Assembly: GCA_016936975.1 (NCBI GenBank)
Contig: JAFGWU010000061.1
Location: 1-64,000, forward strand
Direction of reading: 5' to 3'
Length of the DNA stretch: 64,000 nt
Origin: Bacteroidales bacterium
GTDB taxonomy: Bacteria; Bacteroidota; Bacteroidia; Bacteroidales; GCA-2748055
Shown: positions 19,601-36,676 of the stretch, piece by piece
Layout: every line of letters starts with the position of its first letter
Numbering within the stretch: position 1 is the stretch's first letter
Position numbers and translations under genes: made by a program
Notes under the pieces: model-generated
Seen by the model: only the letters and a program-made list of their open reading frames with translations
Database searches by the model: none
What the model was told of the DNA's origin: nothing

Positions 19601-20063
19601 TGATCCGCGAATCTTCATGGATGAGAATAACCTGCGAATGACCATTCATTACCGGTATGCCTTTGCCATTCTGGCCGGGGCACTGGCCGCGGAAGATGAT
19701 AATGTTCGTGCCAAGGAGGTCCTTGACGAATGTATGAGCAGGATGCCGGAGGAGATTATTCCTTACAACGCAGGGATGATCCCTGTTATCCAGGGATATT
19801 TCAGTATCGGGGAGAGTGATACAGCAAAGAAAATGGTTGAGAAATATGCTGAGATCCTGGAGTCGGAGCTTTTTTATTACCGTGCCATATCTGAAACCAA
19901 TAAGGTCCGGTTCCGGAAAACCGGTCCCGATTTCCTCTCAAGCATCCGGGATATAAATAACCTGAGAAGCATATGTACCGGATATGGAGAGATAGATCTG
20001 GCCCGCAGTCTGGATGAAAAGATCTCATTATTTGCACAGGATTATGAACGGTTTTTCCGGTAG
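16689..20063 (+). CDS. GT117/DUF2723 family membrane protein (TMEM260-like)
   Basis: An 1124-residue protein. The first 630 residues hold about a dozen membrane segments with the family N-terminus [32 protein letters not shown]; the acidic WDCGE motif resembles the catalytic Asp/Glu of GT-C glycosyltransferases. The last 490 residues are a soluble, probably periplasmic domain containing [32 protein letters not shown]. DUF2723 proteins are widespread in Bacteroidota and are grouped as glycosyltransferase family 117. The human relative TMEM260 is a protein O-mannosyltransferase, so protein O-glycosylation is a reasonable guess. It is followed closely by a polysaccharide deacetylase gene. Confidence 0.88.
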   Translation: [1124 protein letters not shown]

Positions 20064-20080
20064 GGATCATTAACGGATTT

Positions 20081-20704
20081 ATGTCCAATGCAAAACCATC
20101 CGGCCTGCTTTCCCATGTCATAAAAAACATGACATGGAATTTTTACGGCAGCCACCGGAATATATACCTGACATTTGATGATGGTCCGACACCGGTTGTT
20201 ACAAAACATGTTCTGGATCTGCTTGATGAATTCGGGGCGCGGGCAACATTTTTTTGTCTTGGCAGGAACGTGGATAAATACCCGGAACTGTACCGGCAAA
20301 TAATAACTTCCGGACATGCGGTGGGCAATCACAGCTACAGTCATATCAAAGGATTCCGCTCTTCAAACCGTCATTACCTGGATGATATTGAACTCGCAGA
20401 CAACCTGATTCATTCCAGATTGTTTCGTCCGCCCTACGGACAGATATTTCCATGGCAGGCCAGGGAGGTTATACATAATTATCGTATCATAATGTGGGAC
20501 ATACTCAGTTTTGATTACAACAGCAGTCTGACCGGAACCCGTGTGGTAAGGAATGTGATCTCAAAGGTCAGGCCAGGTTCCATTATTGTGTTCCACGACT
20601 CTGAAAAAGCCCGAAAAAACCTTTACGCAGCCCTTCCTGAAGTTTTAGGTTTTCTAAAAGAGAATCATTATAACATGGAATTAATTCCTGAGAACGGTAA
20701 GTAA
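20081..20704 (+). CDS. Polysaccharide deacetylase (NodB domain) family protein
   Basis: A 207-residue carbohydrate-esterase-4 domain: YLTFDDGPTP (catalytic Asp and first metal-binding Asp), GHAVGNHSYSH (metal His pair), LFRPPYGQ, MWDILSFDYN, and IIVFHDSEKA with the late catalytic His. All motifs are intact. Such enzymes remove N-acetyl groups from peptidoglycan, chitin or exopolysaccharide. No clear signal peptide is seen. It begins 17 bp after the GT117 gene and may share its transcript. Confidence 0.9.
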   Translation: MSNAKPSGLLSHVIKNMTWNFYGSHRNIYLTFDDGPTPVVTKHVLDLLDEFGARATFFCLGRNVDKYPELYRQIITSGHAVGNHSYSHIKGFRSSNRHYLDDIELADNLIHSRLFRPPYGQIFPWQAREVIHNYRIIMWDILSFDYNSSLTGTRVVRNVISKVRPGSIIVFHDSEKARKNLYAALPEVLGFLKENHYNMELIPENGK

Positions 20705-20710
20705 GAGGGA

Positions 20711-21694
20711 TCAAAGAGCCGTTATCTGAACAAAAACGCCCAGGCCAATCAGGATCCAGATAAACAATTCTTTAATAAATGCGCCGCTTTTCTGGTTGAA
20801 ATAATTGGAAAGAAGGTATGTTAACGGAATCGTCATAAAGTAGATTGCACCCTGGTTCTGTCCGGATAACGGGAAATAAAAAACCAGGCTGAACAGGAAC
20901 ATCACCAGCAGGACACGGTAAATATTTCGGGTAATGATCTTCTTGATGTGGAACCCCCTGGCGATAAACGCACTGGATATTATGGTCAGGAAAAATATGT
21001 AACCGATAAAGAGATATTTACTGAAATGCAGCGGATGCAGGCTTGCCTTGAAGTTCAGGTTTTTCTGCAGAATAAGGGAGAGCTCCCGGAGATTATCCTC
21101 AATGACCCAGTAATAGGTTAACAGGAGGAGTGCAGTAAAAACGGCCGCAACAAAAGGATAGGACAGCTCCCGCAGGGTTACCGGCCGTAAGGTTAAAAGA
21201 ATAATCAACATCACCGGAAAAAACCAGACCAGCCTTGCGTAGAATAGCGTTCCTGCGAAAAAGACCAGGAATGCATGGAAAATCCGGTAGTTGTCCGCCG
21301 GTTCAGCGTGGGAATCGATCAAAATTCTGAAGCTGAGCAGGTAGAAGAGACTGCCTATCAATAACGGGTTCACCTGGTGAAGCAGGGGAAATGCATTTAC
21401 AATCAGCAGGTAAAAAAGAGCCGGCATGAAGGTCCGCTCTTCAATAAGTGAATATCGGAGGTTCAGGCGAACCAGCGCAAGGCAGACGATCAGATGAATC
21501 AGGATGGCAAGAAGGCTGGAGAGACGCGGGAACCCGGCAAGTGGTCCGAAGAGAAAGTTGTAAAGAGGCATGCCATGCCATTCAACTGTTTCCGGTGAAC
21601 GGACAAAGGTGATCAAACAGGTTAGAAAGGCGAGAAGGATTACCAGGACAATGCCTCCTTCCCGGTTGTTTTTGAACAGGCGTAATATGAGCAT
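20711..21694 (-). CDS. Multi-pass membrane protein (DUF6427-like)
   Basis: This 327-residue protein is almost entirely hydrophobic, with roughly ten membrane segments spread along its length and short polar loops. It resembles the DUF6427 membrane proteins commonly found in Bacteroidota next to purD or uracil phosphoribosyltransferase genes. Function is unknown. It lies 11 bp downstream of purD on the same strand and converges on the deacetylase gene. Confidence 0.65.
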   Translation of the reverse strand: MLILRLFKNNREGGIVLVILLAFLTCLITFVRSPETVEWHGMPLYNFLFGPLAGFPRLSSLLAILIHLIVCLALVRLNLRYSLIEERTFMPALFYLLIVNAFPLLHQVNPLLIGSLFYLLSFRILIDSHAEPADNYRIFHAFLVFFAGTLFYARLVWFFPVMLIILLTLRPVTLRELSYPFVAAVFTALLLLTYYWVIEDNLRELSLILQKNLNFKASLHPLHFSKYLFIGYIFFLTIISSAFIARGFHIKKIITRNIYRVLLVMFLFSLVFYFPLSGQNQGAIYFMTIPLTYLLSNYFNQKSGAFIKELFIWILIGLGVFVQITAL

Positions 21695-21705
21695 AAATAT
21701 ATGAA

Positions 21706-22977
21706 CTATTCGAGATCAAACCCGATGTCCCTTCGATAGTATTTCTTATCGAAATGGATAATCTCAGCATTTCTGTAAGACTTCGCAAGTGCCTCCTTCA
21801 TGTTCTTCCCGAAGGAACTCAGGGCGAGGACACGTCCGCCGTCGGTCAGTAATTTTCCGTTTTCCATGCGTGTTCCGGCATGAAAGATCAGACTGCCTTT
21901 CACCTTTTGAGTATTGAAAATCTCTTTTCCTTTTTCGTAGGGGCCGGGATAACCGCCCGATACCAGCATCAAAGTTGAAACGGTGCGCTCGTCTGTTTCG
22001 ATGGACATTGTATCCAGCTTTTTTTCAGCGGTGGCCGTGAGCAGATCGACCAGGTCGGTTTTGATCCGGGGGATGACCACTTCTGCTTCGGGGTCTCCCA
22101 TCCTTACATTATACTCTACCACATAAGGATCCCCATTGCAGTTCATCAATCCGAAAAAGATAAATCCGTTGTAATCGAGTTTCTCTTTTTGCAGTCCCCT
22201 GACCGTAGGCGCCACGATACGCTCCTCCACCTTTTTCATAAAGATTTTATCTGCAAAGGGGACGGGTGATACGGCTCCCATGCCACCCGTATTCAGACCG
22301 GTATCCTTTTCCCCGATCCGCTTATAATCCTTGGCTTCAGGAAGAATTACATATCCTTTTCCATCGGTCAGCGCAAAAACCGAAAGCTCAATACCCCGGA
22401 GGAATTCTTCCACAATTACCTTCTTTGAAGCGTTTCCGAATTTACCCTTCAGCATGTTAGTGAGTTCCTTCCGGGCATCCTCCAGGTTGTCGAGTATCAA
22501 TACGCCTTTCCCTGCGGCCAGTCCGTCGGCTTTCAGCACAAAGGGAGGAGTGAGCTGTTCGAGGTATTGCAATCCCTCATGGATGGAATAGTCGATAAAG
22601 GTTCTGAAATCGGCTGTTGGAATGTCATACTTTTGCATGAACATCTTGGCAAAATCCTTGCTTCCTTCCAGCATGGCTGCATTTCCTGCCGGTCCGATCA
22701 GGGGAACCCGCTTCAGTTTTGCATCACCGAGAAAAAAATCGCGAATCCCTTCCACGAGCGGGACTTCCGGGCCCACCAGCACCAGGTCAACACCATTCTC
22801 GAGTACCGTATTTTTTAATCCTTTAAAGTCATTCACCTTCACCGGGATGTTTGTTCCCACAGTGGCGGTACCGGCGTTTCCGGGAGCGATGAAGAGCCGG
22901 TCTGTTTTTTTGCTTTGTGCCATTTTCCAGGCAAGGGCATGTTCTCGACCGCCGGAACCGATAATAAGGATGTTCAT
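21706..22977 (-). CDS. purD: Phosphoribosylamine-glycine ligase (GAR synthetase)
   Basis: A 423-residue ATP-grasp enzyme for the second step of purine synthesis. It has the N-terminal MNILIIGSGGREHALAWKMAQS, LVGPEVPLVEGI, the ATP-grasp core PFVLKADGLAAGKGVLI, and the metal-binding NVRMGDPEAEVVIPRI. Length is typical. It heads a two-gene operon with the DUF6427-like gene. A short AAGTAAAA-type tandem array lies directly upstream of its start. Confidence 0.97.
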   Translation of the reverse strand: MNILIIGSGGREHALAWKMAQSKKTDRLFIAPGNAGTATVGTNIPVKVNDFKGLKNTVLENGVDLVLVGPEVPLVEGIRDFFLGDAKLKRVPLIGPAGNAAMLEGSKDFAKMFMQKYDIPTADFRTFIDYSIHEGLQYLEQLTPPFVLKADGLAAGKGVLILDNLEDARKELTNMLKGKFGNASKKVIVEEFLRGIELSVFALTDGKGYVILPEAKDYKRIGEKDTGLNTGGMGAVSPVPFADKIFMKKVEERIVAPTVRGLQKEKLDYNGFIFFGLMNCNGDPYVVEYNVRMGDPEAEVVIPRIKTDLVDLLTATAEKKLDTMSIETDERTVSTLMLVSGGYPGPYEKGKEIFNTQKVKGSLIFHAGTRMENGKLLTDGGRVLALSSFGKNMKEALAKSYRNAEIIHFDKKYYRRDIGFDLE

Positions 22978-23472: not shown

Positions 23473-23497
23473 AAACCCCGAAACGAATTCGGGGTTT
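23473..23497 (-). terminator. Terminator after the T9SS/SprB gene
   Basis: A perfect 10-bp stem AAACCCCGAA/TTCGGGGTTT with a 5-nt loop lies 37 bp past the stop of the 23534-25891 gene. A short T-rich stretch (TCTTATTC) follows on the minus strand. Confidence 0.75.
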
Positions 23498-23533: not shown

Positions 23534-25891
23534 TTATTCGATCATCAGTTTCGTGTTCAGGATCCTGCCGTCTACGCGGAGGAGATACATGCCACTGCCG
23601 ATGTGGGTGAGGTCAAATGATTCGTTGTAGATCCCACCGGAAGTGAACCCTTTTTTCCGGAACACCACCTGACCGGTAATGCTGAGGATTTCGAGATCAA
23701 GTTCCGGTTCGTCATACGTCATTTCAATAGTGACCATCCCTTTCGTTGGATTCGGATAGAGGGAGAATTGGGATAGTAAAGCGGCTTTAATGCCGGTGAC
23801 TTCGTTGGACAGGCAGCCGTTGGCATCCATGACCTGGATCACGTAGGCTTCTGCCGGCTGCACATCTGTGAAAATACTGTCGGATTGGGGTGTCCCTTCA
23901 TTAAGGATGTAAGAGTAGGGTCGTGTGCCTCCGGAAACGGATTTCACGGTTATGGTTCCGCTTCCCAGGACATCAAAATCGATCTCCAGGATTTCGAGCA
24001 AGCCGGGCTGACCCAGAATGATGGTGGTATCTTCAGGACTGCACCCTTCAATATCATTTACATGGATGAGGTATTCGCCGGCAGGCAGGTCGGATGCGGT
24101 AACGGGTCCGGAATTCACATAAGCCTTATCAATCACATAGGTATAAATCGGGGTGCCGCCCGATGCCGATACGGTGATGGAGCCTGTGGCTTCCCCGTGG
24201 CAGAGCGGATCTTTCTGCGCAACGATAGAATAGGTAAGTTCTGCAGGCTGCGTAATGCGAACCACCGGGCCTATCTGGGTACAATTCTCCTGATCAATGA
24301 CCACAACGGGATAATCCCCTGCACAAAGATTCAGAAAGTTTGGATTATTTTCCTGGTAGGACAATCCGTTGTCAATGGAATATTTATAAGGGGATCCGAA
24401 TCCTCCGGAAGCCAGGAGGGATATCTTTCCGTTGCAATCACCGTAGCACCCGTTCACATCCACGGTAAAGGCTGTATCCACCGCAATCGGAAGACAGCCG
24501 AGAACGCCCATTACGGCATAATATTTCCCGGTTGTGGAGGTGTAAATACTGTCGCCCAGGACCAGCAGATCAGAATTTGAACGCATCACGGTATACAGAT
24601 TATTACTGTCGTAGAACAGATCCCTTGCCTCTTCCCAGCTGTTGCTTCTGCCAAAATAACTATTGGCGGTTCTGTAATTCCCTTCGGGATCCATGCTACC
24701 GAAAAACATATCCACATCCGAGGGCCCTTTTGTAGTTAATTGAATGCCTCCCCATGAAAGGGTGTCTGCGAAATGTCCGGACAACTTTAATTCATTGTTA
24801 AAAAATTTGCTGTCAAACAGTTTATCGGTTCCTTTTCCTCCGACTGCCTTAAACCATTCCAAAGTGCCGGAAGGTCTGTATTTGGCGATCAGGATATCAC
24901 TCCCGCCTTTGTTTCCCGTGAATTCCATTGTTTCGGTATCACCTGATTCAATAATCAGGGTATCGCTTTCGTAATAACCTGACAGGTAAATATTTTCAGA
25001 AGCATCCAGGGAGAGGGAGTAAGAATATTCGTAATTGTCCCCGACGATAGTTCTGACCCATTGAGAAGTTCCTGCGGTATCCGTTTTAATAAGATGGATA
25101 TCATAAAGTTCTCCCTCAGACGCGATGGTGTCATTATCAATGACAATGGAATCGGAAAAATAGCCGGAAAAATAATATGACTGGTCAGTTGTTTCAATAT
25201 TTGTTATTATTCCGTACAGCGGACTGCTGATTCCCTTAATCTGTTTTGCCCATACAAAATTTCCGTTTTCGCTTTTGAACTTGGCATAAAAATAGTCATC
25301 ATAACCATCCCGGGAATAAATTGTGGTATCGTTATAAAATGCGATGCTGTCGGTAAAAAAGCCGGCAATGATTAAATCCCCGTTGGTGTCAATTCCCATG
25401 TTTGAGGGACGCTGATTTGCAGTTCCCCTGCCATAATTCCGGATCCATACGAGGTTACCATCCGGGGCATATTTAGCGGCAAAAGCATCGAATCCGCCCG
25501 TGCTGATAATGGAATCACCGGGAGCATATTTTAAATAATTTCTGTACCCTCCTGTGATGTAAATATGATCGTCAGGATCGATACAAATGCCTCCATCGAC
25601 ATATTCAAGAGAGGGGCCCCCTAAATGCCTTATCCAATCTACCTCTCCTGATTGAAGATATTTAATGAGGAAATAATCCCGTGAACCGAGGGCATTGATG
25701 ACCTCTCCGTTGGGGGGCATCAGGGTGCCGGTGAAAAAGCCCAGGGTATAGATGCTGTTTTCAGAGTCAATCGTAGACCGGATGACCACTACATCCTGAT
25801 TTCCGACAAGACGGTTTGAACTTATCCAGGATTGTGCAGGCAGGATAAGTGAAACTGATAAAATGTAAAATAAGAGTATAATTTTCCTCAT
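23534..25891 (-). CDS. T9SS-sorted protein with SBBP and SprB-type repeats
   Basis: A 785-residue secreted protein. The signal peptide is residues 1-19 (MRKIILLFYILSVSLILPA). Residues 20 to about 440 are repeated beta-propeller-like (SBBP) units of the form W-x-x-x-x-G...D...G-Y. About 470-690 are three SprB-like modules (for example SGGTPIYTYVIDKA and LPAGEYLIHVNDIEGC). The end is a type A T9SS sorting domain (FSLYPNPTKGMVTIEM...GSGMYLLRVDG). It should be exported through the outer membrane. Its start lies 12 bp after the stop of the lasso-peptide precursor, so it may be read from the same transcript; whether it has a role in that system is unknown. Confidence 0.85.
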   Translation of the reverse strand: MRKIILLFYILSVSLILPAQSWISSNRLVGNQDVVVIRSTIDSENSIYTLGFFTGTLMPPNGEVINALGSRDYFLIKYLQSGEVDWIRHLGGPSLEYVDGGICIDPDDHIYITGGYRNYLKYAPGDSIISTGGFDAFAAKYAPDGNLVWIRNYGRGTANQRPSNMGIDTNGDLIIAGFFTDSIAFYNDTTIYSRDGYDDYFYAKFKSENGNFVWAKQIKGISSPLYGIITNIETTDQSYYFSGYFSDSIVIDNDTIASEGELYDIHLIKTDTAGTSQWVRTIVGDNYEYSYSLSLDASENIYLSGYYESDTLIIESGDTETMEFTGNKGGSDILIAKYRPSGTLEWFKAVGGKGTDKLFDSKFFNNELKLSGHFADTLSWGGIQLTTKGPSDVDMFFGSMDPEGNYRTANSYFGRSNSWEEARDLFYDSNNLYTVMRSNSDLLVLGDSIYTSTTGKYYAVMGVLGCLPIAVDTAFTVDVNGCYGDCNGKISLLASGGFGSPYKYSIDNGLSYQENNPNFLNLCAGDYPVVVIDQENCTQIGPVVRITQPAELTYSIVAQKDPLCHGEATGSITVSASGGTPIYTYVIDKAYVNSGPVTASDLPAGEYLIHVNDIEGCSPEDTTIILGQPGLLEILEIDFDVLGSGTITVKSVSGGTRPYSYILNEGTPQSDSIFTDVQPAEAYVIQVMDANGCLSNEVTGIKAALLSQFSLYPNPTKGMVTIEMTYDEPELDLEILSITGQVVFRKKGFTSGGIYNESFDLTHIGSGMYLLRVDGRILNTKLMIE

Positions 25892-25903
25892 GATTTATAT
25901 TTA

Positions 25904-26029
25904 TTAACTCATGTAAAATCCAACCTCCGCAGTATAACGGGTTTGTCCGTTGAGAGTATTCTTAAAATCCAGTTTCTCGAACACCGGCTTTTCCCAGGTT
26001 TTTTTTATCTGATGGTTATCGCGCTTCAT
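25904..26029 (-). CDS. Lasso peptide precursor (A gene)
   Basis: A 41-codon gene; its ATG (26029-26027) is one base after the stop of the B2 peptidase gene. The leader holds WEKPVFEKLDFKNTL (residues 12-26), which fits the aromatic-x-x-Pro recognition motif bound by B1 proteins and the Thr at leader position -2 needed by B2 and cyclase. The predicted core is NGQTRYTAEVGFYMS (27-41), with an Asn1-Glu9 isopeptide ring and a 6-residue tail. A core starting one residue later would give a Gly1-Glu8 ring but would place Thr at -3. The C-terminal residue is Ser, the known phosphorylation site in paeninodin-type lasso peptides. Confidence 0.85.
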   Translation of the reverse strand: MKRDNHQIKKTWEKPVFEKLDFKNTLNGQTRYTAEVGFYMS

Positions 26030-26030
26030 G

Positions 26031-26435
26031 TTAATTTATTTTATGGTAACTAACCGGTTCCATCCTGGTCAGTGGATTCCATGCATGGGCCAGTAGCTGA
26101 CCTTCCTCATCCTTCTTCAATCCCAGGTAAATGGGAAAGGGCACATTCTTTTTCTTAAAATAATCCTGCAGGGCAATATTTTGCATCAGGCAGGTAGTTT
26201 TTACAGGAATGAATTTAACAATTTTCCGGAACCGACGCAACTCTTTACCCGAAAATTGCAATTCGGTCTGATGTTCTGGCTGCGGGATAAAAAAGCGGTG
26301 CCGGTAACGTTTTAAGGGCACATGGCGTACCAGGAAACGGGCTCTGAGCAGGAGAAATACCATCCTGATCACTGACAGTTTTTCCGGCTTACTGCAGTGC
26401 ATAAATTTTCGAATATAGTGAATCAAACTACGCAT
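26031..26435 (-). CDS. Lasso peptide leader peptidase (B2 protein)
   Basis: This 134-residue protein is the size of a stand-alone B2 protein, a transglutaminase-like Cys protease that removes the leader. The nucleophile Cys82 is in VKTTCLMQN and His117 is in LLAHAWNPL; the IYLGLKKDEEG segment between them fits the family. The acidic third residue that often follows HAW in a DG motif is not evident, and Asn120 lies there instead. The N-terminal 50 residues are basic and partly hydrophobic. It overlaps the B1 gene by 8 bp and is followed after one base by the precursor gene. Confidence 0.88.
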   Translation of the reverse strand: MRSLIHYIRKFMHCSKPEKLSVIRMVFLLLRARFLVRHVPLKRYRHRFFIPQPEHQTELQFSGKELRRFRKIVKFIPVKTTCLMQNIALQDYFKKKNVPFPIYLGLKKDEEGQLLAHAWNPLTRMEPVSYHKIN

Positions 26436-26733
26436 GAACCTTAATGATTCCGCTTTCCAGCAAAGCTTTCAGGAAGGGCGTTACATCCTTTCTGCACTGT
26501 TCAGCCGAAACATCGTACTCTTCCATCAGGGCAGCAATAAGCTCCCTGAACGATCGGGGTTCCGACAGAAGGTTCCAGATATCCCGGCCTGTCGGATCCA
26601 GGTGATAGTATTCGCTGTTTTCAATGCTCAGCATCACGATCTCTCCATCCACCTCGCTGAACAGAGGCTCTGTGCTTCTCTGCAATATTGTGTGTTCTTC
26701 TATTTCGATACTTGACCTGATTTGCGGCACCAT
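26428..26733 (-). CDS. PqqD-like RiPP recognition protein (lasso B1)
   Basis: A 101-residue PqqD-superfamily protein: LFSEVDGEIVMLSIENSEYYHLDPTGRDIWNLLSEPRSFRELIAALMEEYDVSAEQCRKDV. The beta-strand/helix pattern and the LDPTGRDIWNLL motif are diagnostic of the RiPP recognition element. It binds the precursor leader and delivers it to B2. It overlaps B2 by 8 bp, the typical split B1-B2 arrangement. A 126-bp gap separates it from the sulfotransferase gene upstream. Confidence 0.9.
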   Translation of the reverse strand: MVPQIRSSIEIEEHTILQRSTEPLFSEVDGEIVMLSIENSEYYHLDPTGRDIWNLLSEPRSFRELIAALMEEYDVSAEQCRKDVTPFLKALLESGIIKVHA

Positions 26734-26859
26734 TTAAAAGACTGCTAAAATTCTTTTATCTGCAACTATATCAGACAAAACTTGTTGTCGGTTGTACCTA
26801 CTGCCCCCGGTTCCCGATACCTTTAAAAAACAAAGTTACAAAAATATAGTTCAATTCGT

Positions 26860-27726
26860 TTAATATGAATTGATTTCCGGAAAATATCCGTAGTGCTTCA
26901 TCAGGGGGCCATGTTTATCAATGATAAACCGGATGGTTTCCTGATCCAGGAGCGTTTTCCAGGTGCCGGCCCGGCCGCTCCTGAAAAACGATTCGGACTT
27001 CGGTGCCTTTTCCTTGAATCCTTTCTTCTGCTCCTGGGCCTGCAGGATGCGGAAATCGCTGTTCCGGATGGCCTTTTCAAACTGGTCCCTGTGGTAGTTC
27101 AATTCCAGGAAATCCAATGCTTCTGAAAAGGTTTTAAAGCTATCCCGGAGCAAATCTTCATAGCGGATCACATGAACCGGCAGTCCCGACTGTTCCGTCC
27201 AGGAGCGGACATGTCCCGACCAGTCCGATAAATCCTGCCGGAGCTGGTTATAAAGTTTATCCGGTTTAAAGCAGAAACTGTAGCGGGGATCATTCAGGTT
27301 CGTGGCAGACTGCTTCACCTCGATACTGTTATGGTGTGCGAAGGATACGGCCACATCCAGGGGATTACGGATCATATAGATGACTGCCCGGGTGGCATCC
27401 GCCGGGAAGAGCGGCTCTTTATTTTCATTCAGGGTCCAGGCGTCGTGGACTTTTATAAACAGCAATTCCGGGGCTTCCCGGGAGATGCGGCGGTACACCT
27501 CCGGACGGAGGTTTGCAATCTCCGTTTCGGTCAGATCGGAAGCACTGGTACCAGCAGACTCATCAAACAGCAGCCGGCTGCTGGCAATGGGGGTTTTATC
27601 CAGCTCATTGATATCAAACGGTTCATCGGAATCGGAGAAGAGGTTATGCAGGAAAGCCCTGAACCAGGTGTTCCCCGATTTCGGATAGGAGGCCAGCCAG
27701 ACAATATTTCCGGTTGCTTTCAACAT
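26860..27726 (-). CDS. Sulfotransferase domain protein in the lasso cluster
   Basis: A 288-residue PAPS-dependent sulfotransferase. The 5'-phosphosulfate loop is SYPKSGNTWFRAFL (residues 13-26), and the 3'-phosphate site is MIRNPLDVAVSFAHHNS. The RAGTWKTLL motif near the end (RSGRAGTWKTLLDQET) closes the cofactor pocket. Length fits cytosolic sulfotransferases. Its ATG overlaps the stop of the lasso kinase gene by 7 bp, so they are co-translated. A Tyr, Ser or Thr of the lasso peptide (for example Tyr32 or Tyr39 of the precursor) is a possible acceptor; this is inference. Confidence 0.87.
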   Translation of the reverse strand: MLKATGNIVWLASYPKSGNTWFRAFLHNLFSDSDEPFDINELDKTPIASSRLLFDESAGTSASDLTETEIANLRPEVYRRISREAPELLFIKVHDAWTLNENKEPLFPADATRAVIYMIRNPLDVAVSFAHHNSIEVKQSATNLNDPRYSFCFKPDKLYNQLRQDLSDWSGHVRSWTEQSGLPVHVIRYEDLLRDSFKTFSEALDFLELNYHRDQFEKAIRNSDFRILQAQEQKKGFKEKAPKSESFFRSGRAGTWKTLLDQETIRFIIDKHGPLMKHYGYFPEINSY

Positions 27727-28628
27727 TCTCCCTGCAGTATATGCTTATCCACGAAATCGGCCAGTTCCCTCACCTGCAGTGGGGCAGAGGGGCGTTCTAC
27801 CCTGTAAACCCTGATGCGGCTGACTATTTGCGAAAGCTGTTTAAAATGGGTTTCGGTCTGTTTCAGCCTGTCAACATATTGTAGACGGTAGGTGTGGGAA
27901 CGCAGGAGGCTGAATTTTTTTGCGCCGCGTATCTCTTCCATGGTGAACCCGGGGGTGTTTTTGGTAGCGAGAACAATGATGCGGCAAAGTTTTGTGTTCG
28001 TATCCGGACCAATTTGTTTTACGGGCTTTTTGTATTTCTCCATCCGGGGCCGGATCCTTTCCAGTGATTTTCCTTCGTTCATATAGATCAGCACATCCTT
28101 CCACAGTTTCAAATGGGGAATGCCCGGAGAAACGGCAGGAATAGATGCATCCCCTGTGTTGATGACTGTGATATCATCGGAGAGGATGGCATATCCCTTC
28201 TCATAAAGACCGGCTGCAAGGGATGATTTTCCTGCGGATGAGACGCCGGTAATGATGGTTGCCCGGTTGTTTTTGACCACCGCACTGCCATGCAGGGCCA
28301 GCATTCCCCTCTGGTGCAGGAGGGCCCCCATAACGGATCCCAGCAAAAAGAGCCGGACCTCCTCAGGGGCAGCATTTTTATTCGCCTGAATGGTTATAAA
28401 TCGTCCCTCCCTAACCCTGTACCGGGCCACATTGTCAAGCCTGAAAATAAAATCATCCTCCCCGGCCTCATACAGAACACCCGAACCCAGCGGTTTCTCA
28501 AGTTGGTCCGGAACCATTCCCAGTTTAATAAAGACATCCGGTGCTTTATTCTTTTCCATGATCAGTTCAGGAAGACTGATTTCCGAATCGATGACCAGTC
28601 CGTATACTTTATATCTGAAAGATCCCAA
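27720..28628 (-). CDS. HPr-kinase-like lasso peptide kinase
   Basis: A 302-residue protein resembling the catalytic domain of HPr kinase/phosphorylase. It has LALHGSAVV (residues 111-118), the P-loop GVSSAGKSSL (128-137), and the acidic ILSDDITVI motif (148-156). It lacks the N-terminal domain of true HprK. Proteins of this type in lasso clusters (PadeK, ThcoK) phosphorylate the C-terminal Ser of the precursor, and the precursor here ends in Ser. It is first in the minus-strand operon kinase-sulfotransferase-B1-B2-A and has a promoter box 17-24 bp upstream. Confidence 0.87.
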   Translation of the reverse strand: MGSFRYKVYGLVIDSEISLPELIMEKNKAPDVFIKLGMVPDQLEKPLGSGVLYEAGEDDFIFRLDNVARYRVREGRFITIQANKNAAPEEVRLFLLGSVMGALLHQRGMLALHGSAVVKNNRATIITGVSSAGKSSLAAGLYEKGYAILSDDITVINTGDASIPAVSPGIPHLKLWKDVLIYMNEGKSLERIRPRMEKYKKPVKQIGPDTNTKLCRIIVLATKNTPGFTMEEIRGAKKFSLLRSHTYRLQYVDRLKQTETHFKQLSQIVSRIRVYRVERPSAPLQVRELADFVDKHILQGEC

Positions 28629-28644
28629 GGAATTAAATTTTTTA

Positions 28645-28652
28645 CAAAGATA
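28645..28652 (-). promoter_or_regulatory. Putative -7 box of the kinase-sulfotransferase-B1-B2-A operon
   Basis: The minus strand reads TATCTTTG, an exact TAnnTTTG match, 16 bp before the kinase start. It lies in the 140-bp divergent region shared with the cyclase gene. Confidence 0.5.
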
Positions 28653-28755
28653 ATATTAATAGATTCGGGAGCATTAAAACGGAGGATTTGGCTCCGGTGC
28701 GGTGTTCATGCATTTTAATAAACGGTTTCAGGATATGCGGTGTAAAAGTTTCTGG

Positions 28756-28763
28756 TAAATTTG
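28756..28763 (+). promoter_or_regulatory. Putative -7 box of the lasso cyclase gene
   Basis: TAAATTTG (a TAnnTTTG match) lies 5 bp before the preferred ATG at 28769. Transcription starting about 7 nt downstream would give an almost leaderless mRNA. No Shine-Dalgarno-like sequence is evident. Confidence 0.4.
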
Positions 28764-28768
28764 CAGGG

Positions 28769-30721
28769 ATGAGTTCGATTATTGGTATTATCAACAAAAA
28801 AGGCAGAACCCTTGAACCGGCCCTGGTTGAAAAGACCATGGTTCCTCCTGTTTACTGGGAACCGGACGATTCAGGAATCTGGAGCCGTGGCCCGGTTGCA
28901 TTGGGATGCCATATGCTGTATACCACCCCCGGGTCGCTGAATGAAAAACTGCCGCATTATCATGAGGAGTCGGGGTGCTGTATTACGGCTGATGCACGGA
29001 TTGATTACCGGGAGGAGCTGGCAGAAGAGTTAAACCTGGACTGGAAAGATGCAAGGAATCTGCCCGACAGTATCTTCCTGTTAAAGGCTTACCAGAAATG
29101 GGGAAGGGATTGTGTAAAGCATTTTTATGGCGATTTCGCCTTTGCCATCTGGGACGATCGCTCGCAGACGCTCTTTGCCGCAAGGGATCATTTCGGGTGC
29201 CGGCCCTTCTACTATTTTGAAACCGAAGAACTATTTGCCTTCTCTTCGGATATCATGGGATTGATGCTTATGCCCGGTTTTTCCGCAAAAATTGATGAGA
29301 TGTTCCTGGTGGACACCCTGGCAACCATCGTGCCGGAGAAAGATAAAACTGCCTTCGAGACTCTTTTCAGGCTCCGGCCGGCACACATGCTCTCCATCGA
29401 CCGTGACGCCGGTTTAACGACCGTCAGGTACTGGGACCTGGAATTAAAACCCGCGTTCACCGGCCTCAATGAGACGGAAGCCGCGGCAGGATTGAGGCAG
29501 CGGTTCATGAAAGCAGTCGGGGAGCGGTGCCGGAGCGCCTTTCCTGTAGGCATTGAGCTCAGCGGAGGTCTGGACTCGTCGGCCATTGCCTGTGCGGCTT
29601 CAGGGGTATCTAATAAGGAAAACAGCCTGACGGCTTTTTCTCATACGCTCTCCGAAGAACAAAAAAAGCATTATTATCCGTTTATAGATGAAACCGGATA
29701 TGCAGAAATCGTTGCCGGGACCTGCCATTTTAAGGATCATTTCAGGATTCATGGAGAAGGTTCATATGGATGCCTGCAGGTACTGTCCGATTTTCTGGAT
29801 TTGTGCCCGATGCCATATGGACAGGGATTCAGCCTGTTCTCCGACCTGTTATACAATTCGGCAAGGAAAGCCGGCGTCAGGGTGTTGCTTTCAGGATTCG
29901 GAGGTGATGAAGGGGTAACCTCCCAGGCTGGCGGTTTTTTCGAGGAGTTGGTTCAGGCAGGAAAATTGGGTGAATTGAAAAAACAACTCCGGTTAAAGAT
30001 CAGGAAAGGAGGGGGAAATTACTATTTGAGCCTGTTTCGGCTGGTGATGGGTAAATGGTTCCCGTGTTTCCCTAACCTGTTGAACGGCCTGCACCTGAAG
30101 AGAGACTGGCGACAGCCGAGATTTAATACCTTTGCCATTGATCCCGGTATTAAGAAACATTACAGTCTGAAACAACGGTTTTTCCGAAAAGTCGGATTTC
30201 CGGAAGATCCCGATGTGCGCAGGCGGCAGTATAAGCGCATTATGCATGATCATGTTCCGGAACGTCTCGAAGAGTCGTGGCTGAATGCCCGCCGGAACCG
30301 GATTGAGTACCGTTATCCGTTTTTTGATGTGAAGCTCATCGAATTTTATTACGCCCTGCCATCAGAATTTAAATACCGGGATGGTCTTGGCCGTTACATC
30401 TTCCGGAAAGCAATGGAAGGCATTCTTCCTGATGAAATATTCCGGAGAAATGATAAAACGGGAGCAACCATTCCGAACCTTCCCTACCGGCTGGCAATGG
30501 ATGCCGATGCCTTTCGTGAAATCATTAAAGAAGCCAGAAAAAACAACAGGTACCACTATGTGGATTATGAGAAGTTGGCAGAGAATCTCGATCTTTTATT
30601 AGATCGTAACACCGGGAAAAGAATTGGCTTCGGGAACAGGTCTTTTTTCAGCTCCATTGTGGTACTGATCCTTCAGAAGCGGCAGAGGGAGGGGAGGATC
30701 AATATAGGGATTAAGTGTTAA
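28769..30721 (+). CDS. Lasso peptide cyclase (asparagine-synthetase homolog, C protein)
   Basis: The ATG at 28769 (MSSIIGIINKKGR) is preferred because glutaminase-like N-termini of this family start there; an in-frame start at 28688 adds an unrelated 27 residues. The 650-residue product has an AsnB-like N-terminal domain (YGDFAFAIWDDRSQTLFAARDHFGCRPFYY) without the catalytic Cys2, so it cannot use glutamine. The C-terminal synthetase domain has the PP-loop SGGLDSS at 265-271. Lasso cyclases adenylate the ring Asp/Glu side chain and close the isopeptide bond with residue 1. It diverges from the kinase-B1-B2-A operon. Confidence 0.92.
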   Translation: MSSIIGIINKKGRTLEPALVEKTMVPPVYWEPDDSGIWSRGPVALGCHMLYTTPGSLNEKLPHYHEESGCCITADARIDYREELAEELNLDWKDARNLPDSIFLLKAYQKWGRDCVKHFYGDFAFAIWDDRSQTLFAARDHFGCRPFYYFETEELFAFSSDIMGLMLMPGFSAKIDEMFLVDTLATIVPEKDKTAFETLFRLRPAHMLSIDRDAGLTTVRYWDLELKPAFTGLNETEAAAGLRQRFMKAVGERCRSAFPVGIELSGGLDSSAIACAASGVSNKENSLTAFSHTLSEEQKKHYYPFIDETGYAEIVAGTCHFKDHFRIHGEGSYGCLQVLSDFLDLCPMPYGQGFSLFSDLLYNSARKAGVRVLLSGFGGDEGVTSQAGGFFEELVQAGKLGELKKQLRLKIRKGGGNYYLSLFRLVMGKWFPCFPNLLNGLHLKRDWRQPRFNTFAIDPGIKKHYSLKQRFFRKVGFPEDPDVRRRQYKRIMHDHVPERLEESWLNARRNRIEYRYPFFDVKLIEFYYALPSEFKYRDGLGRYIFRKAMEGILPDEIFRRNDKTGATIPNLPYRLAMDADAFREIIKEARKNNRYHYVDYEKLAENLDLLLDRNTGKRIGFGNRSFFSSIVVLILQKRQREGRINIGIKC

Positions 30722-30889
30722 TATTCTCTTGCGAACTGTCATGTCTGCAGATTCTGATTAAGGCATTCAGGCAGGAAGGGAAGAAGGTCCTGAAACAAGT
30801 TCAGGATGGCAGTTATTGGGATTAACGATGATTGGTTGACATGAGAAGAAGGTCCTGATATGTGTAATTTTTTTTTGTAATTTTAGCGT
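30722..30889. repeat. Intergenic gap with an inverted repeat and a 12-bp direct repeat
   Basis: This 168-bp gap separates the cyclase and nucleotidyltransferase genes. It holds a small hairpin TCCTGAA/TTCAGGA (30788-30806), without a T-run, and a direct repeat AGAAGGTCCTGA at about 30782 and 30847. No terminator was found, so readthrough into the nucleotidyltransferase gene is possible. Confidence 0.5.
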
Positions 30890-31945
30890 ATGCCTCATCC
30901 GTCTGCCGAGCAGTTAATTGTCTTCAGTTTACTGAAGGGAGAGCCGGTTCATTCTCTTGAAGGGGTGAATGGGCCCAAGCTTGTGGATTTGATCCGGCGG
31001 CATAAGCTGTTCCCGATTGCGGAAGGGCTCCTGAAAATGATGAAGGAACCGGAGCGCGGCGAATTGAAGAAAGGAATCCAGGTTCAGTCGATAAAATCCC
31101 AGCACCTCTCGTCGGTTCTGACGGAGATTTTCAGTGAATTTAAAAACAGCGGCATCGAGGCACTTGCACTGAAGGGTCCTGTCCTTGCCCGCGCACTTTA
31201 CGGGGATGTGATCAAACGCAGTTTTAATGATCTCGATATCCTGGTGAAGCAGGATGCCCTGTGGGATACCATTGAGGTACTGAAAACATTCGGATTTAAA
31301 CTGCTCTATCCCCGTGAAAATCTTACAGGAAAGCAATGGGAATATTATTTCCGCTATCAAAAAGAGGTGGGATTGGTCCATGTACGGCAGAAATCGTATA
31401 TCGAACTGCATACAGGGATTTATATTCATGAGTTATTGCGGAAGTCGGAAGAGTTCATTCTCCTTGAGGAGCCTGTTGAGGAACTCATTTATGAATCATC
31501 CGTCGGAACCCTTAACCGCGAAAATACATTTCTTTACCTGGTGTATCATGGAGCATACCATCTCTATAACCGGCTCTTCTGGCTGAGGGATGTGGCACAG
31601 GCGCAAAAAACATGGAAGCTGGACCACCAGTCGGTTCTTGACAAAGCCAGTCAGCTGGGCATCGATCGTCTGCTGGGAGTTTCGCTGCTTCTGTCGGAAT
31701 CTTACGCCGGGATCCCGATTCCGGAAACGTATGCCGGCTACCTGAAAAGAAACAGGCACATATTGCGCAGGCTGGCTGGAATGTGTCACCGGCGGATCTG
31801 CGGAAAGGAACACGAAACGGTATTCGGGAAACTGCGCCGGAACATTTATTTCAGCCTGCTGAAGCCGGGACTGCATTACCGGCTGACGGTATTTAAAAGC
31901 CTGTTCCACCGCTGGTATATCCGTCATTTCCTGGGGGGACACTAA
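30890..31945 (+). CDS. Nucleotidyltransferase family protein of the lasso cluster
   Basis: A 351-residue protein of the NTP_transf_5-type family. The motif GIEALALKGPVLARALYGD (residues 89-106) and FNDLDILV (112-119, two acidic residues) form the metal/NTP site of a minimal nucleotidyltransferase. The C-terminal 200 residues are mostly helical with conserved LVYHGAYHLYNRLFWLRDV. Such genes are common companions of kinase-containing lasso clusters, where they are thought to add to the peptide or its phosphate; the reaction is unproven. It follows the cyclase on the same strand. Confidence 0.85.
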   Translation: MPHPSAEQLIVFSLLKGEPVHSLEGVNGPKLVDLIRRHKLFPIAEGLLKMMKEPERGELKKGIQVQSIKSQHLSSVLTEIFSEFKNSGIEALALKGPVLARALYGDVIKRSFNDLDILVKQDALWDTIEVLKTFGFKLLYPRENLTGKQWEYYFRYQKEVGLVHVRQKSYIELHTGIYIHELLRKSEEFILLEEPVEELIYESSVGTLNRENTFLYLVYHGAYHLYNRLFWLRDVAQAQKTWKLDHQSVLDKASQLGIDRLLGVSLLLSESYAGIPIPETYAGYLKRNRHILRRLAGMCHRRICGKEHETVFGKLRRNIYFSLLKPGLHYRLTVFKSLFHRWYIRHFLGGH

Positions 31946-32029: not shown

Positions 32030-32099
32030 CCTGCACCCTGAACCATGGACCCTGCACCCTGAACCATGGACCCTGCACCCTGAACCATGGACCCTGCAC
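32030..32099. repeat. 21-bp tandem repeat
   Basis: Three perfect copies of CCCTGCACCCTGAACCATGGA start at 32030, 32051 and 32072, with a partial fourth. A related CCTGAACCCTGAAT tract occurs near 23450. They are intergenic between the lasso cluster and the next operon. Confidence 0.85.
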
Positions 32100-32154
32100 T
32101 CAACCTGCAGGGGACGGACCAGGTCCTCAGCCTCTCATCAAATGGTTCCTGGTT

Positions 32155-33616: not shown

Positions 33617-36600
33617 CTAATCGTTTTCAACAACCTGGCGTTTCTTAAAAACGGGATGGTTGATGATGCGGGCAATCACATCGTAGTAAAGTACTATGTA
33701 AAGGAGTCCCGTCATAAACCAGATAAAACCCATATTGAAATTAAAGGTGTCGTGGTAACGGCCAAGAAAATATTTCCGGGGTGCAAAAAAATGTGCACGG
33801 ATACCGAGTCCTGAAGGTTCGGGATCGTGAAAGACCGGATCGATTTGCCGGTATAGCCGCCCTCTGTATTCAACGATTTTATTTTTTTCATAGATCTTCT
33901 GCACCTGGTCCGATACGCTTTCATTATGATACCTGTCCAGCATGGTAAAGTAGAGGGCCCTGCGGTCATCTGAGAAAAGGGTGTTCAGGTGGTGCTGCTT
34001 CTCCCTGTCGGCTTTGCTGAAGCGTTGGAGAAAAACCCGGTTCAGGTTGTCAAGGAATTTCTCTGTTTTTTCGGCCTGTTTGGCATTGAAATGTGAAGGG
34101 TCCAGTTCACCGGCTTTAAAGCTTACATCCTGAACCAGTTCCCGGTGCCTCCAGATTTCGTTCTTCAAAACCTCAAAGGCCGGTAAAGTTTCATTCAATG
34201 CACCCTTGAGGTTGTATTCGGTGCGGCAGGCATCCAGACGTTCCTTCAGTTCGGGTATGAAATAAGCCGTCATGAAATTGTTCTGACTGATTTTCTTTTC
34301 CACTTCGTAGAAGTTGCGCTGGAATTCATTATCCTTGAATTGTTTGACCATCAGGGCCTCATACGACCATTTGGTAGGCATCAGTTCAGCGATCAGCGGG
34401 ACTTTATCCACCCGGGTGAGGCGGCGGTTCAGCTTCTCAAATGAAAACATGGCCCCGCTGAGGACCATCATGGGGATCATCACCAGGGGGATGATAATGT
34501 AGATGGTTACTGCTGAGTTGAAGGAGGATGATATGATCAATCCGATCAGGTTGGCACATACGGCGGTTGAAAAGAGCGCAAACCAGTAAGGGAAAAGCAT
34601 GTTCCGGATCTCAAGGATGGAGTTGGCGATGATCACAAACGTGAAGGCCTGGATGGCCGAGATGATCACCAGCGTAAATATTTTGGCGATGAGATAGGAG
34701 GAACGGCTGAGATTCAGGAATTTTTCTCGTTTCAGAATTTTCCGGTCGCGAAAAATCTCCTCGGCACTGATGATCAGTCCCAGGAACAGGGCTACAATCA
34801 GTGCCATGAAAATATAGATCGGGATGTTTTCATTCTCCCTGAAGATATAGGACCGGCTCGTCGGGTCGGCTATATACCGGATGATATAGGAGAGAATAAA
34901 TGCCAGCACCGGCGATACCAGCAGGTTCAGGAGCACGTACTGCCGGTTGTTCATCTTTGACTTGAAATCTCTCCTGAAATAGTTGGCCAGCTGGGAGAAC
35001 CATCCCGGGATATTCAGGTTCACCGGAGGCGCCTCGTCGGTCGGCTCCGGCTGTTCCTGTGACTTAGTTTCCCGGTACACCTCCTCCCACTTTTTCGGAC
35101 TCATCTTCCGCTGATCGGTATAGTTGCCGAACTCATCCACCTGACGGGCCTCAATAATGTTGAATATCAGTTCGGGATTTACGTTACCGCACACAGGACA
35201 TTCACCCACATCCGCATTTACCTGGTTATCGACCTTCTTGAAGTGCATGATGCCTTCCACCGGATTCCCGAAATAGACCAGTCTTCCGCCCGTATCCAGA
35301 ATCAGCACCTTGTCGAACATCTTGTAAAGTTCGGAGGAGGGCTGGTGGATGACCACAAAAATGAGTTTGCCCTTCAGGGCCAGTTCACGGAGCAGGTCCA
35401 TGACATTTTCCGAATCCTTTGAAGAAAGGCCCGAAGTCGGCTCGTCGAGGTAGAGAACCGATGGCTCGCGGATCAGCTCGAGGGCGATGTTCAGCCGTTT
35501 TCTTTGCCCACCCGAAATGGTCTTGTTCAGTACCGAACCCACTCTCAGATCTTTCTTGTCAAGCAGTCCGAGACTGGAAAGGGTATCCTCCACATTTTTC
35601 CGGATGGCGCTGTCGGAGCGATCTCTGAAACAAAACCTGGCATTAAAGTAAAGGTTATCAAAAACAGACAGTTCCTCAATCAGCAGATCATCCTGCGGCA
35701 CATATCCTGTCGTTCCCGTGATTAATCCGGGATCTTTCCGGACATCAAGGTTATTGATCCGGATGGATCCGCTGTCGGGCACATAAATACCGGAAAGCAC
35801 ATTCAGGAGTGTGGTTTTCCCTGAGCCGCTTGATCCGAGGATACCGATGAGATTCCCCTGTTCAGCAAAGAAGGAGATATCGTGCAGTCCTTTATATCCG
35901 TTTGGGAAAGTAAAGGTAATGTGGTCGGCTTCAAATGTGATTTTCTGAATGGAGGTACCGGCATGAAACCGGCTCCGGATGTCGCTGTAAAAAAAAGGTT
36001 GTCCACCGGTAATACGTATGGTGCTCCCGTTGGCCAGCAAATAAATCACACCGCTCCGCAGGGCCAGTCCGTTCAGAAAAATCTCCTGTGTCCCCAGGTA
36101 TTTAATGAAATAAAGTTCAACGGAGGGAACCCGGAGGACCATCATTTCACCCCGCATACCAGGGGCCCTGAAATGTCTGAAGGACATCTCCTCCGTATCT
36201 TTGTCTCTTATAAGGAGCAGATTCATGTCTGACAAACCGGCCCCTGCTTCAGAGGTGACGAAGGTAAAAATAGTGTCGTATTCCAGCCTGCTGACCCTGA
36301 ATACCTCCGCAACCGTGTCGACAATCTCCAGGCGCTGTTTCGTTAATTTGTATTCTGAATTGATTAATTCCAGTATCCTTACCAGAACCACAATCTTCTG
36401 TCTCTGATTCAGAGTCGTATTGATTTGCCTGCAGAGTCTCAATATCTTCACCGAATCGAGAACGGAGGTGAGCCTGTTCTCCCCGGAGATCTCTTCGGGA
36501 TGGTCGCCAGATGCCGTTTCCAGGAATAACCGGAAATAGGCCTCGGAGGATTCAACACCGATCTGCTGGTTGAGAAAATTCCGGACATACTCCTTCTCCT

Positions 36601-36676
36601 TCTCTTCAATTCCGCCATCCTGCTTGATGATGATGGCAAAAAGCTGCATCAGGGCTTTGAGTATCTCCTCGCTCAT
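33617..36676 (-). CDS. TerB-FHA-ABC transporter fusion (ABCG-like half-transporter)
   Basis: A 1019-residue protein in four parts. Residues 1-140 are TerB-like (LMQLFAIIIKQDGGIEEKEKEYVRNFL). About 150-250 is an FHA-like beta domain. About 260-480 is an ABC ATPase with GILGSSGSGKTTLLNVLSG (Walker A), the signature ISGGQRKRLNIALEL and LYLDEPTSGLSS (Walker B). From about 560 there are ABC-2 membrane segments around a long soluble insertion (about 770-940), with a last one near the C-terminus. A CPVC motif (ECPVCGNVNPE) lies in the linker. The order ATPase-then-membrane matches ABCG exporters. It is the last gene of the signalling operon below and may be its output. Confidence 0.87.
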   Translation of the reverse strand: MSEEILKALMQLFAIIIKQDGGIEEKEKEYVRNFLNQQIGVESSEAYFRLFLETASGDHPEEISGENRLTSVLDSVKILRLCRQINTTLNQRQKIVVLVRILELINSEYKLTKQRLEIVDTVAEVFRVSRLEYDTIFTFVTSEAGAGLSDMNLLLIRDKDTEEMSFRHFRAPGMRGEMMVLRVPSVELYFIKYLGTQEIFLNGLALRSGVIYLLANGSTIRITGGQPFFYSDIRSRFHAGTSIQKITFEADHITFTFPNGYKGLHDISFFAEQGNLIGILGSSGSGKTTLLNVLSGIYVPDSGSIRINNLDVRKDPGLITGTTGYVPQDDLLIEELSVFDNLYFNARFCFRDRSDSAIRKNVEDTLSSLGLLDKKDLRVGSVLNKTISGGQRKRLNIALELIREPSVLYLDEPTSGLSSKDSENVMDLLRELALKGKLIFVVIHQPSSELYKMFDKVLILDTGGRLVYFGNPVEGIMHFKKVDNQVNADVGECPVCGNVNPELIFNIIEARQVDEFGNYTDQRKMSPKKWEEVYRETKSQEQPEPTDEAPPVNLNIPGWFSQLANYFRRDFKSKMNNRQYVLLNLLVSPVLAFILSYIIRYIADPTSRSYIFRENENIPIYIFMALIVALFLGLIISAEEIFRDRKILKREKFLNLSRSSYLIAKIFTLVIISAIQAFTFVIIANSILEIRNMLFPYWFALFSTAVCANLIGLIISSSFNSAVTIYIIIPLVMIPMMVLSGAMFSFEKLNRRLTRVDKVPLIAELMPTKWSYEALMVKQFKDNEFQRNFYEVEKKISQNNFMTAYFIPELKERLDACRTEYNLKGALNETLPAFEVLKNEIWRHRELVQDVSFKAGELDPSHFNAKQAEKTEKFLDNLNRVFLQRFSKADREKQHHLNTLFSDDRRALYFTMLDRYHNESVSDQVQKIYEKNKIVEYRGRLYRQIDPVFHDPEPSGLGIRAHFFAPRKYFLGRYHDTFNFNMGFIWFMTGLLYIVLYYDVIARIINHPVFKKRQVVEND

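Follow-up and report, generated by a model that had tools for sequence, protein, structure and literature searches.

The first 64,000 nucleotides of contig JAFGWU010000061.1 (assembly GCA_016936975.1, from a Bacteroidales bacterium), called the window below, carry a lasso-peptide gene cluster, and on balance we favour the view that this is a complete paeninodin-like operon and that its product has a secreted surface protein for a partner. A preliminary description, made from the sequence alone, had placed seven genes here, and we found all of them at its coordinates. From gene calls and profiles, the minus strand encodes the precursor (A), the leader peptidase (B2), a PqqD-like leader-binding protein (B1), a sulfotransferase (S) and an HPr-kinase-like kinase (K), while the divergent plus strand encodes the cyclase (C) and a nucleotidyltransferase-family protein (N) (Table 1). 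The extent given to the cluster holds for these seven genes, and its left edge proved too short: the gene of a beta-propeller protein, which had been missed, shares the predicted operon and is its last gene.

The lasso enzymes were identified by profile matches. B1 scores 88.3 bits with NF033536 (cut-off 80) and B2, the sole PF13471 match in the available genome sequence, 36.8 bits with NF033537 (cut-off 33), both passing. The top match of C is the lasso cyclase model NF033535, with 412.6 bits, under its cut-off of 525; C reads from an ATG start and, as had been described, has no Cys at position 2. S (87.8 bits with PF00685, cut-off 22) and N (116.7 bits with PF14907, cut-off 31.2) also pass, and K gives weak matches to HprK-type models, all under their cut-offs. 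With the paeninodin-family model NF033524 the precursor reaches 21.3 bits (E 1.7e-4), under the cut-off of 27, and because of this score we file it, by its sequence, as paeninodin-like and not as a member of the NF033524 family. These matches, together with nearest named relatives that are Bacteroidales genomes, agree with the earlier claim of a lasso cluster in Bacteroidota. A chance arrangement is excluded, because the gene set, and largely its order, is conserved in relatives.

In the propeller protein we see a signal peptide (by eye), a beta-propeller that takes up about 460 residues at the N terminus, SprB repeats and a type IX sorting tail. This tail scores 42.4 bits with PF18962 (cut-off 27), and tail and signal peptide together make the protein, by sequence, a type IX secretion substrate. 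Its N-terminal 480 residues align over their full length with the corresponding gene in 12 relatives, and the structure predicted for window 24452-25891 is a beta-propeller with a mean predicted local distance difference test score of 86. The best solved match to this model is CylK (Foldseek E 4.1e-18, TM-score 0.70 by query length, root-mean-square deviation 7.1 over 468 columns); a domain search of the protein gave no match to a hydrolase domain. On the minus strand the stretch from A to the propeller gene has no predicted terminator-like site, and such a site stands directly after the propeller gene. Since the scan found 7 such sites for 6.4 expected, it is the place of this hairpin rather than the number of sites that counts.

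We observed that the precursor gene is directly followed by a propeller gene in 17 of the 31 Bacteroidota lasso loci holding a precursor. The propeller was also searched alone (E 1e-60) in 393 genomes belonging to the window's order with a profile, A4, built from lasso-linked propellers, which hence score high by construction; it gave 57 matches in 40 genomes. Among 59 propeller frames, 23 have a precursor directly upstream, five more lie inside lasso clusters and seven, cut by a contig edge, were set aside. With the score threshold fixed, precursor-like frames precede 19 of 58 propeller genes as compared with 3 out of 476 other large frames, two of these three being lasso exporters, a count that includes the clusters used to build the profiles. 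Of the 36 uncut propeller genes fetched by their own sequence, 11 of 20 in kinase-bearing genomes have a precursor, and none of 16 in other genomes (p 6e-4); genome G330 was counted as kinase-bearing only once its kinase appeared in a later locus map. In addition, we found trios of C, A and propeller whose fetched stretch contains none of K, S, B1 and B2 (loci L163, L165, L171, L173, L192 and L193), and precursor-propeller pairs with no lasso enzyme within the 3.0-5.5 kb fetched (L167, L169, L177, L187 and L199, with L187 and L199 on short stretches close to contig ends). L192 and L193 had been candidates for the latter class and were rejected, as C adjoins the precursor in both. The genomes of trios and stand-alone pairs carry some lasso enzymes elsewhere, and we can show no genome with two complete precursor-propeller pairs. 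A quick tree of 56 propellers needs 8 changes of the label "paired", against a shuffled mean of 17.2, so that the label is clustered. In a phylum sample of 395 genomes, 2 besides the window's own have a propeller match at E 1e-60. Pairing outside the order was rejected: in the 2 further genomes of the 395 with a weak propeller match, a simple pattern found no precursor-like frame.

Several observations weigh against a functional pairing. Since 24 of the 59 propeller frames have neither an adjoining precursor nor a lasso cluster, the propeller family is not exclusive to lasso peptides. In 14 of the 31 Bacteroidota loci with a precursor the propeller is not directly behind it (L051 ends at a contig edge, the two propellers of L038 lie at other places in the cluster, and the remaining 12 loci show no propeller next to the precursor). 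Of the 11 precursors counted in kinase-bearing genomes, three (L167, L192 and L199) were accepted by eye and have poor leader-model scores. Seven propeller clusters are not independent, having parts of their neighbourhood (purD, DUF2723, deacetylase) in common. A promoter-like match (minus strand 25917-25890, 9/12) lies between A and the propeller gene, so that the latter could have its own promoter. The genome holds 117 type IX tail matches, and a secreted neighbour as such is therefore common. Finally, a propeller exported by Sec is unable to take a lasso peptide with it from the cytoplasm, and the pairing thus does not account for the export route of the peptide. The propeller could thus be an unrelated secreted protein, co-inherited at a shared chromosomal site, and the lasso peptide an ordinary secreted antimicrobial or signal. 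The abundance of type IX tails, the flanks common to several relatives and the propellers without precursor or cluster all fit such a history, but the trios and pairs lacking other lasso enzymes in the fetched stretch, the confinement of the pairing to kinase-bearing genomes and the clustering of the paired label do not, and we consider it unlikely. As a separate observation on the flanks, two or three of DUF2723, deacetylase and purD stand together beside the cluster in the window (16689-22977) and in L032, L034, L035, L037, L039 and L040.

No lasso exporter of the ATP-binding cassette (ABC) type was found at 200 bits or more in window 18001-45000, with no search elsewhere in the genome. The ABC gene at 33617-36676 was rejected for this role; it is of the ABC-2 type, a recurrent chromosomal neighbour, and scores 98 bits. 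The window cluster fits neither the exporter type nor the isopeptidase type; its seven genes belong to families other than the isopeptidase, and its propeller partner shows no hydrolase domain. Among kinase-bearing clusters, an ABC exporter of at least 200 bits occurs in none of 21 with a propeller and in 6 of 20 without (L064, L065, L070, L072, L073 and L075, all Bacteroidales; p 0.009), a comparison uncorrected for kinship, with some contigs short, and made with an exporter profile built from six clusters previously seen to be propeller-free. L185 (148 bits) and L121 (126 bits) gave weaker matches, which were left uncounted. That exporter and propeller never occur together in the clusters seen might mean that the propeller is a guard, sequestering the peptide at the surface of its producer and giving self-immunity in place of an ABC exporter. 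However, no activity of the peptide is known, and a type IX protein, being outside the cell, would protect only from peptide that is outside as well; we hold this to be very unlikely. In another Bacteroidales branch (L064, L065, L067 and L070) a formyltransferase-like gene and two or three genes with a phage tail-collar domain (PF07484, tested in L064) take the place of the propeller.

Lasso precursors have a leader with the motif W/Y..P and a Thr at position -2. The window precursor has W..P and this Thr, and an acidic residue within core positions 7-9. Counting from Thr at -2, the core is the 15-residue NGQTRYTAEVGFYMS, with a ring from Asn1 to Glu9; an alternative start at Gly leaves a 14-residue core with Glu8 as the acidic ring residue, so that the 15 residues given by the preliminary description hold for the Asn1 start alone. 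Precursors across loci were found with a leader profile. Asn as first core residue recurs in L079, L084 and L167. Ser is the last residue of 54 of 60 cores whose locus or genome has S and of 22 of 24 where S is absent, and Glu or Asp stands at core positions 7-10 in 58/60 and 19/24, respectively, a few cores being parsed too long. The one weak match to a second precursor in the window's genome (E 0.001) was rejected because it lies inside a 246-codon frame. In L175 (2563-4003) a precursor-like frame is followed by an M23 peptidase gene, and the propeller gene there points the opposite way.

Lasso kinases carry a His-Lys-Asp-Asp motif, according to excerpts of PMC9266682. In a 17-row alignment K keeps this motif (H113 and D151 in at least 90% of rows, K134 and D152 invariant), and the precursor has a C-terminal Ser; as far as sequence can tell, the proposal of a phosphorylated paeninodin-like lasso peptide stands. 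N belongs to PF14907, the family to which PsmN, the pseudomycoidin nucleotidyltransferase, presumably belongs too, and it has no solved relative at E 0.1. The product had been described as possibly nucleotidylated, for which a hexose is the better guess, as PsmN reportedly adds hexose to phospho-Ser; by analogy, N may perhaps do the same.

In an 18-row alignment of S, the motif SYPKSGNTW (the 3'-phosphoadenosine-5'-phosphosulfate loop), K92/H94/D95, R120 and S128 are invariant; the loop and the KxHD residues we take to be catalytic. The nearest solved relatives by sequence include Teg12, Teg14 and StaL. Sulfation, which had been put forward as a possibility, is plausible, and more so since S keeps these motifs and goes with K, but is unproven. 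We observed that cores with S have a higher fraction of non-terminal Ser, Thr or Tyr than those without (0.262 vs 0.161, p 4e-4; 0.267 vs 0.155 with one core per locus). Such a residue is missing from none of 60 cores with S and from 4 of 24 without (p 0.006), namely L079, L111, L157 and L192, of which L079 and L192 are Bacteroidota and L079, L111 and L157 were judged to lack S on the fetched stretch only. Because the cores with S are richer in these residues and none is without one, a core hydroxyl is favoured as the target of S, and it is there that we infer the sulfation site. Tyr is missing from 34 of the 60 cores, which rules it out as the only target. Two points tell against this chemistry: the hydroxyl difference spans phyla and is uncorrected for kinship or core length (median 16 vs 20), and six cores with S lack the C-terminal Ser (L049, L050, L053, L073, L169 and one of L093). 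S might instead act on the hexose that N attaches to the phosphate, and the handle would then be a sulfated glycophospho group. The position of S, mostly beside K, and the presence of N in 29 of the 38 Bacteroidota loci holding K and C would suit this, but in L096, L099, L101 and L102 clusters with S have no N in the fetched stretch, where N could lie elsewhere, and we regard hexose sulfation as distinctly unlikely.

K was present in 46 of the 393 genomes of the order (E 1e-10, weaker matches dropped). Searched alone in the same genomes (E 1e-40), S gave 38 matches in 36 genomes, all 36 of which carry K; 33 of these matches directly adjoin K and the other five adjoin B1. A scan for K in named genomes kept 79 loci, from Bacteroidales, from other Bacteroidota metagenome genomes and, more remotely, from Chloroflexota, Acidobacteria, Proteobacteria, Verrucomicrobia, Bacillota and others. 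In loci fetched by K, 38 of 39 S matches from Bacteroidota and 18 of 24 from other phyla stand immediately behind K; K loci with no S in the fetched stretch number 20 of 59 and 39 of 62, respectively. Six loci (L080-L083, L089 and L090) were dropped before counting, and from the Bacteroidota list, as they lie on the same contigs as others. The phylum sample held S in 4 of 395 genomes, two of them within the order. K and S are thus a recurrent gene pair; K without S is common, and S without K was unseen in the order. Two kinase genes flank the sulfotransferase in L072 (8052-10740) and L073 (7507-10236), an arrangement that may point to a second phosphorylation site or to a task shared between the kinases. 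In L041 (7970-9994) and in L180, L181, L182 and L183, S adjoins B1 with no B2 or C in the fetched stretch; these may be lasso systems that are split up, or else S and B1 may form a system acting on a different substrate. Acidobacteria-type genomes (L096, L099, L101 and L102) have two cyclase genes around the K-S pair, and three to five precursors in a row occur in L096, L099 and L102, with none found in L101.

Table 1. Features of the lasso-peptide cluster and its surroundings in the window
Feature	Position	Strand	Remarks
A, lasso precursor, 41 aa	25904..26029	-	leader W..P, Thr at -2, core NGQTRYTAEVGFYMS, C-terminal Ser
B2, leader peptidase	26031..26435	-	PF13471; NF033537
B1, PqqD-like leader-binding protein	26428..26733	-	NF033536 above cut-off
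S, sulfotransferase	26860..27726	-	PF00685
K, HPr-kinase-like lasso kinase	27720..28628	-	7 bp overlap with S
C, lasso cyclase, asparagine-synthetase-like	28769..30721	+	ATG start, SGGLDSS present, no Cys2
N, nucleotidyltransferase family PF14907	30890..31945	+	Pfam profile
Partner protein (propeller gene), 785 aa	23534..25891	-	12 bp after A
Terminator-like hairpin, 10 pairs	23473..23497	-	directly 3' of partner gene; probable operon end
K-C divergent intergenic region, probable promoter region	28629..28768	.	from gene layout alone

Between N and the next gene, a short tandem repeat (window 32030-32105) was seen by eye, with about 3 copies of a 21-base unit.

Tailoring genes of these kinds are already known in lasso clusters and are not new in kind. 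Excerpts of a 2021 review (PMC8498205) describe some Firmicutes lasso clusters as containing putative genes for a sulfotransferase and for a nucleotidyltransferase, and the pseudomycoidin nucleotidyltransferase as decorating the phosphorylated peptide with one or two hexoses. Those of a 2014 survey (PMC4289311) report an HPr kinase with a sulfotransferase in some clusters of anaerobes, and those of a 2024 paper (PMC11381294) one Paenibacillus lasso operon with nucleotidyltransferase and sulfotransferase genes, the same being cited for P. polymyxa CR1. In these excerpts we did not find kinase, sulfotransferase and nucleotidyltransferase spelled out together in one cluster. The combination had been called unusual, a claim that is weakened by the kinds already in print. 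Among the papers listed from an open-access library (for one search, 15 of 5,751) we found no proven sulfated lasso peptide, and excerpts of PMC9484694, PMC10370606, PMC12446376 and PMC11758808 report none. No paper of this library has both "lasso peptide" and "type IX secretion", and in the excerpts of one of the seven papers with "lasso peptide" and "propeller" the latter word belongs to the isopeptidase. A 2020 survey (PMC7533575, in excerpt) states that the advantages of lasso-peptide modifications remain unclear.

The paeninodin cluster of Paenibacillus, with its kinase PadeK, resembles that of the window in B1, B2, C, K and a precursor with C-terminal Ser, but the window cluster has no ABC exporter, adds S, N and the secreted propeller, and comes from another phylum. 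The clusters of Paenibacillus polymyxa CR1 and Paenibacillus sp. APC 4171, likened by the excerpted description, have the same kinds of tailoring gene; what differs here is that most loci with S have it paired with K, that an exporter is lacking and that there is a propeller partner. Two Bacillota loci, L094 and L119, do encode an S of the window's family (389 and 378 bits). Pseudomycoidin (PsmK, PsmN) shares a kinase and an N of the nucleotidyltransferase family, with one or two hexoses reported on phospho-Ser, whereas the excerpts of the reviews mention neither a sulfotransferase nor a propeller for it. Isopeptidase clusters (AtxE2, SpI-IsoP) are likewise mostly without ABC exporter, and their open beta-propeller partner is described, in excerpts, as recognising the folded peptide by shape; the isopeptidases add an alpha/beta-hydrolase domain, and the window partner has instead SprB repeats, a type IX tail and no hydrolase-domain match. 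CylK, whose solved fold comes nearest to the propeller, is an alkylating enzyme that has additional domains, whereas we claim no catalytic site for the window propeller.

We propose that B1 would carry the 41-residue precursor, B2 cut it after Thr-Leu and C close the ring, probably between Asn1 and Glu9, to give a lasso product. Of this much we are nearly certain, and that the core begins with Asn1 rather than Gly seems fairly probable. K would likely phosphorylate the C-terminal Ser before folding. N may add a hexose to the C-terminal phosphate, as reported for PsmN, a possibility to which we give slightly less than even weight, and S, encoded directly after K, might sulfate a core Ser, Thr or Tyr other than the C-terminal Ser, for and against which we are evenly divided. 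These steps on ring closure, phosphate, hexose and sulfate would follow from the protein families; we regard the lasso peptide as probably phosphorylated, perhaps sulfated and perhaps glycosylated. The propeller, borne on the same predicted transcript, would be sent out via Sec and type IX secretion and is rather probably a functional partner of the peptide. Tentatively, it may bind the exported peptide, perhaps by a shared anionic C-terminal handle, and hold or present it at the surface. This role, and the meeting of the two molecules, we infer from the gene pairing, which suggests that peptide and propeller work together outside the cell.

A wider reading would be a third architecture beside the exporter and isopeptidase types. 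Bacteroidales enzymes would act, partly at a distance, on precursors that each have their own type IX propeller, and the propeller would capture and display the peptide via its phosphorylated (glycosylated or sulfated) C-terminal Ser as common handle. We consider this doubtful, and lowered our estimate slightly because no genome with two pairs could be shown and two of the seven supposed stand-alone pairs had C beside them.

In our view, the propeller gene, which lies just outside the coordinates first given to the cluster, is a more interesting part of the finding than the tailoring genes. The K-S pair, found in several phyla, also offers a sulfotransferase whose target residues in peptides may be other than tyrosine. 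The recurrent encoding of peptide and propeller side by side makes the role of the phosphate, hexose or sulfate testable, with the propeller as a ready bait. If the pairing is functional, this would be a lasso peptide working at the surface with a protein partner, and not as a free antibiotic.

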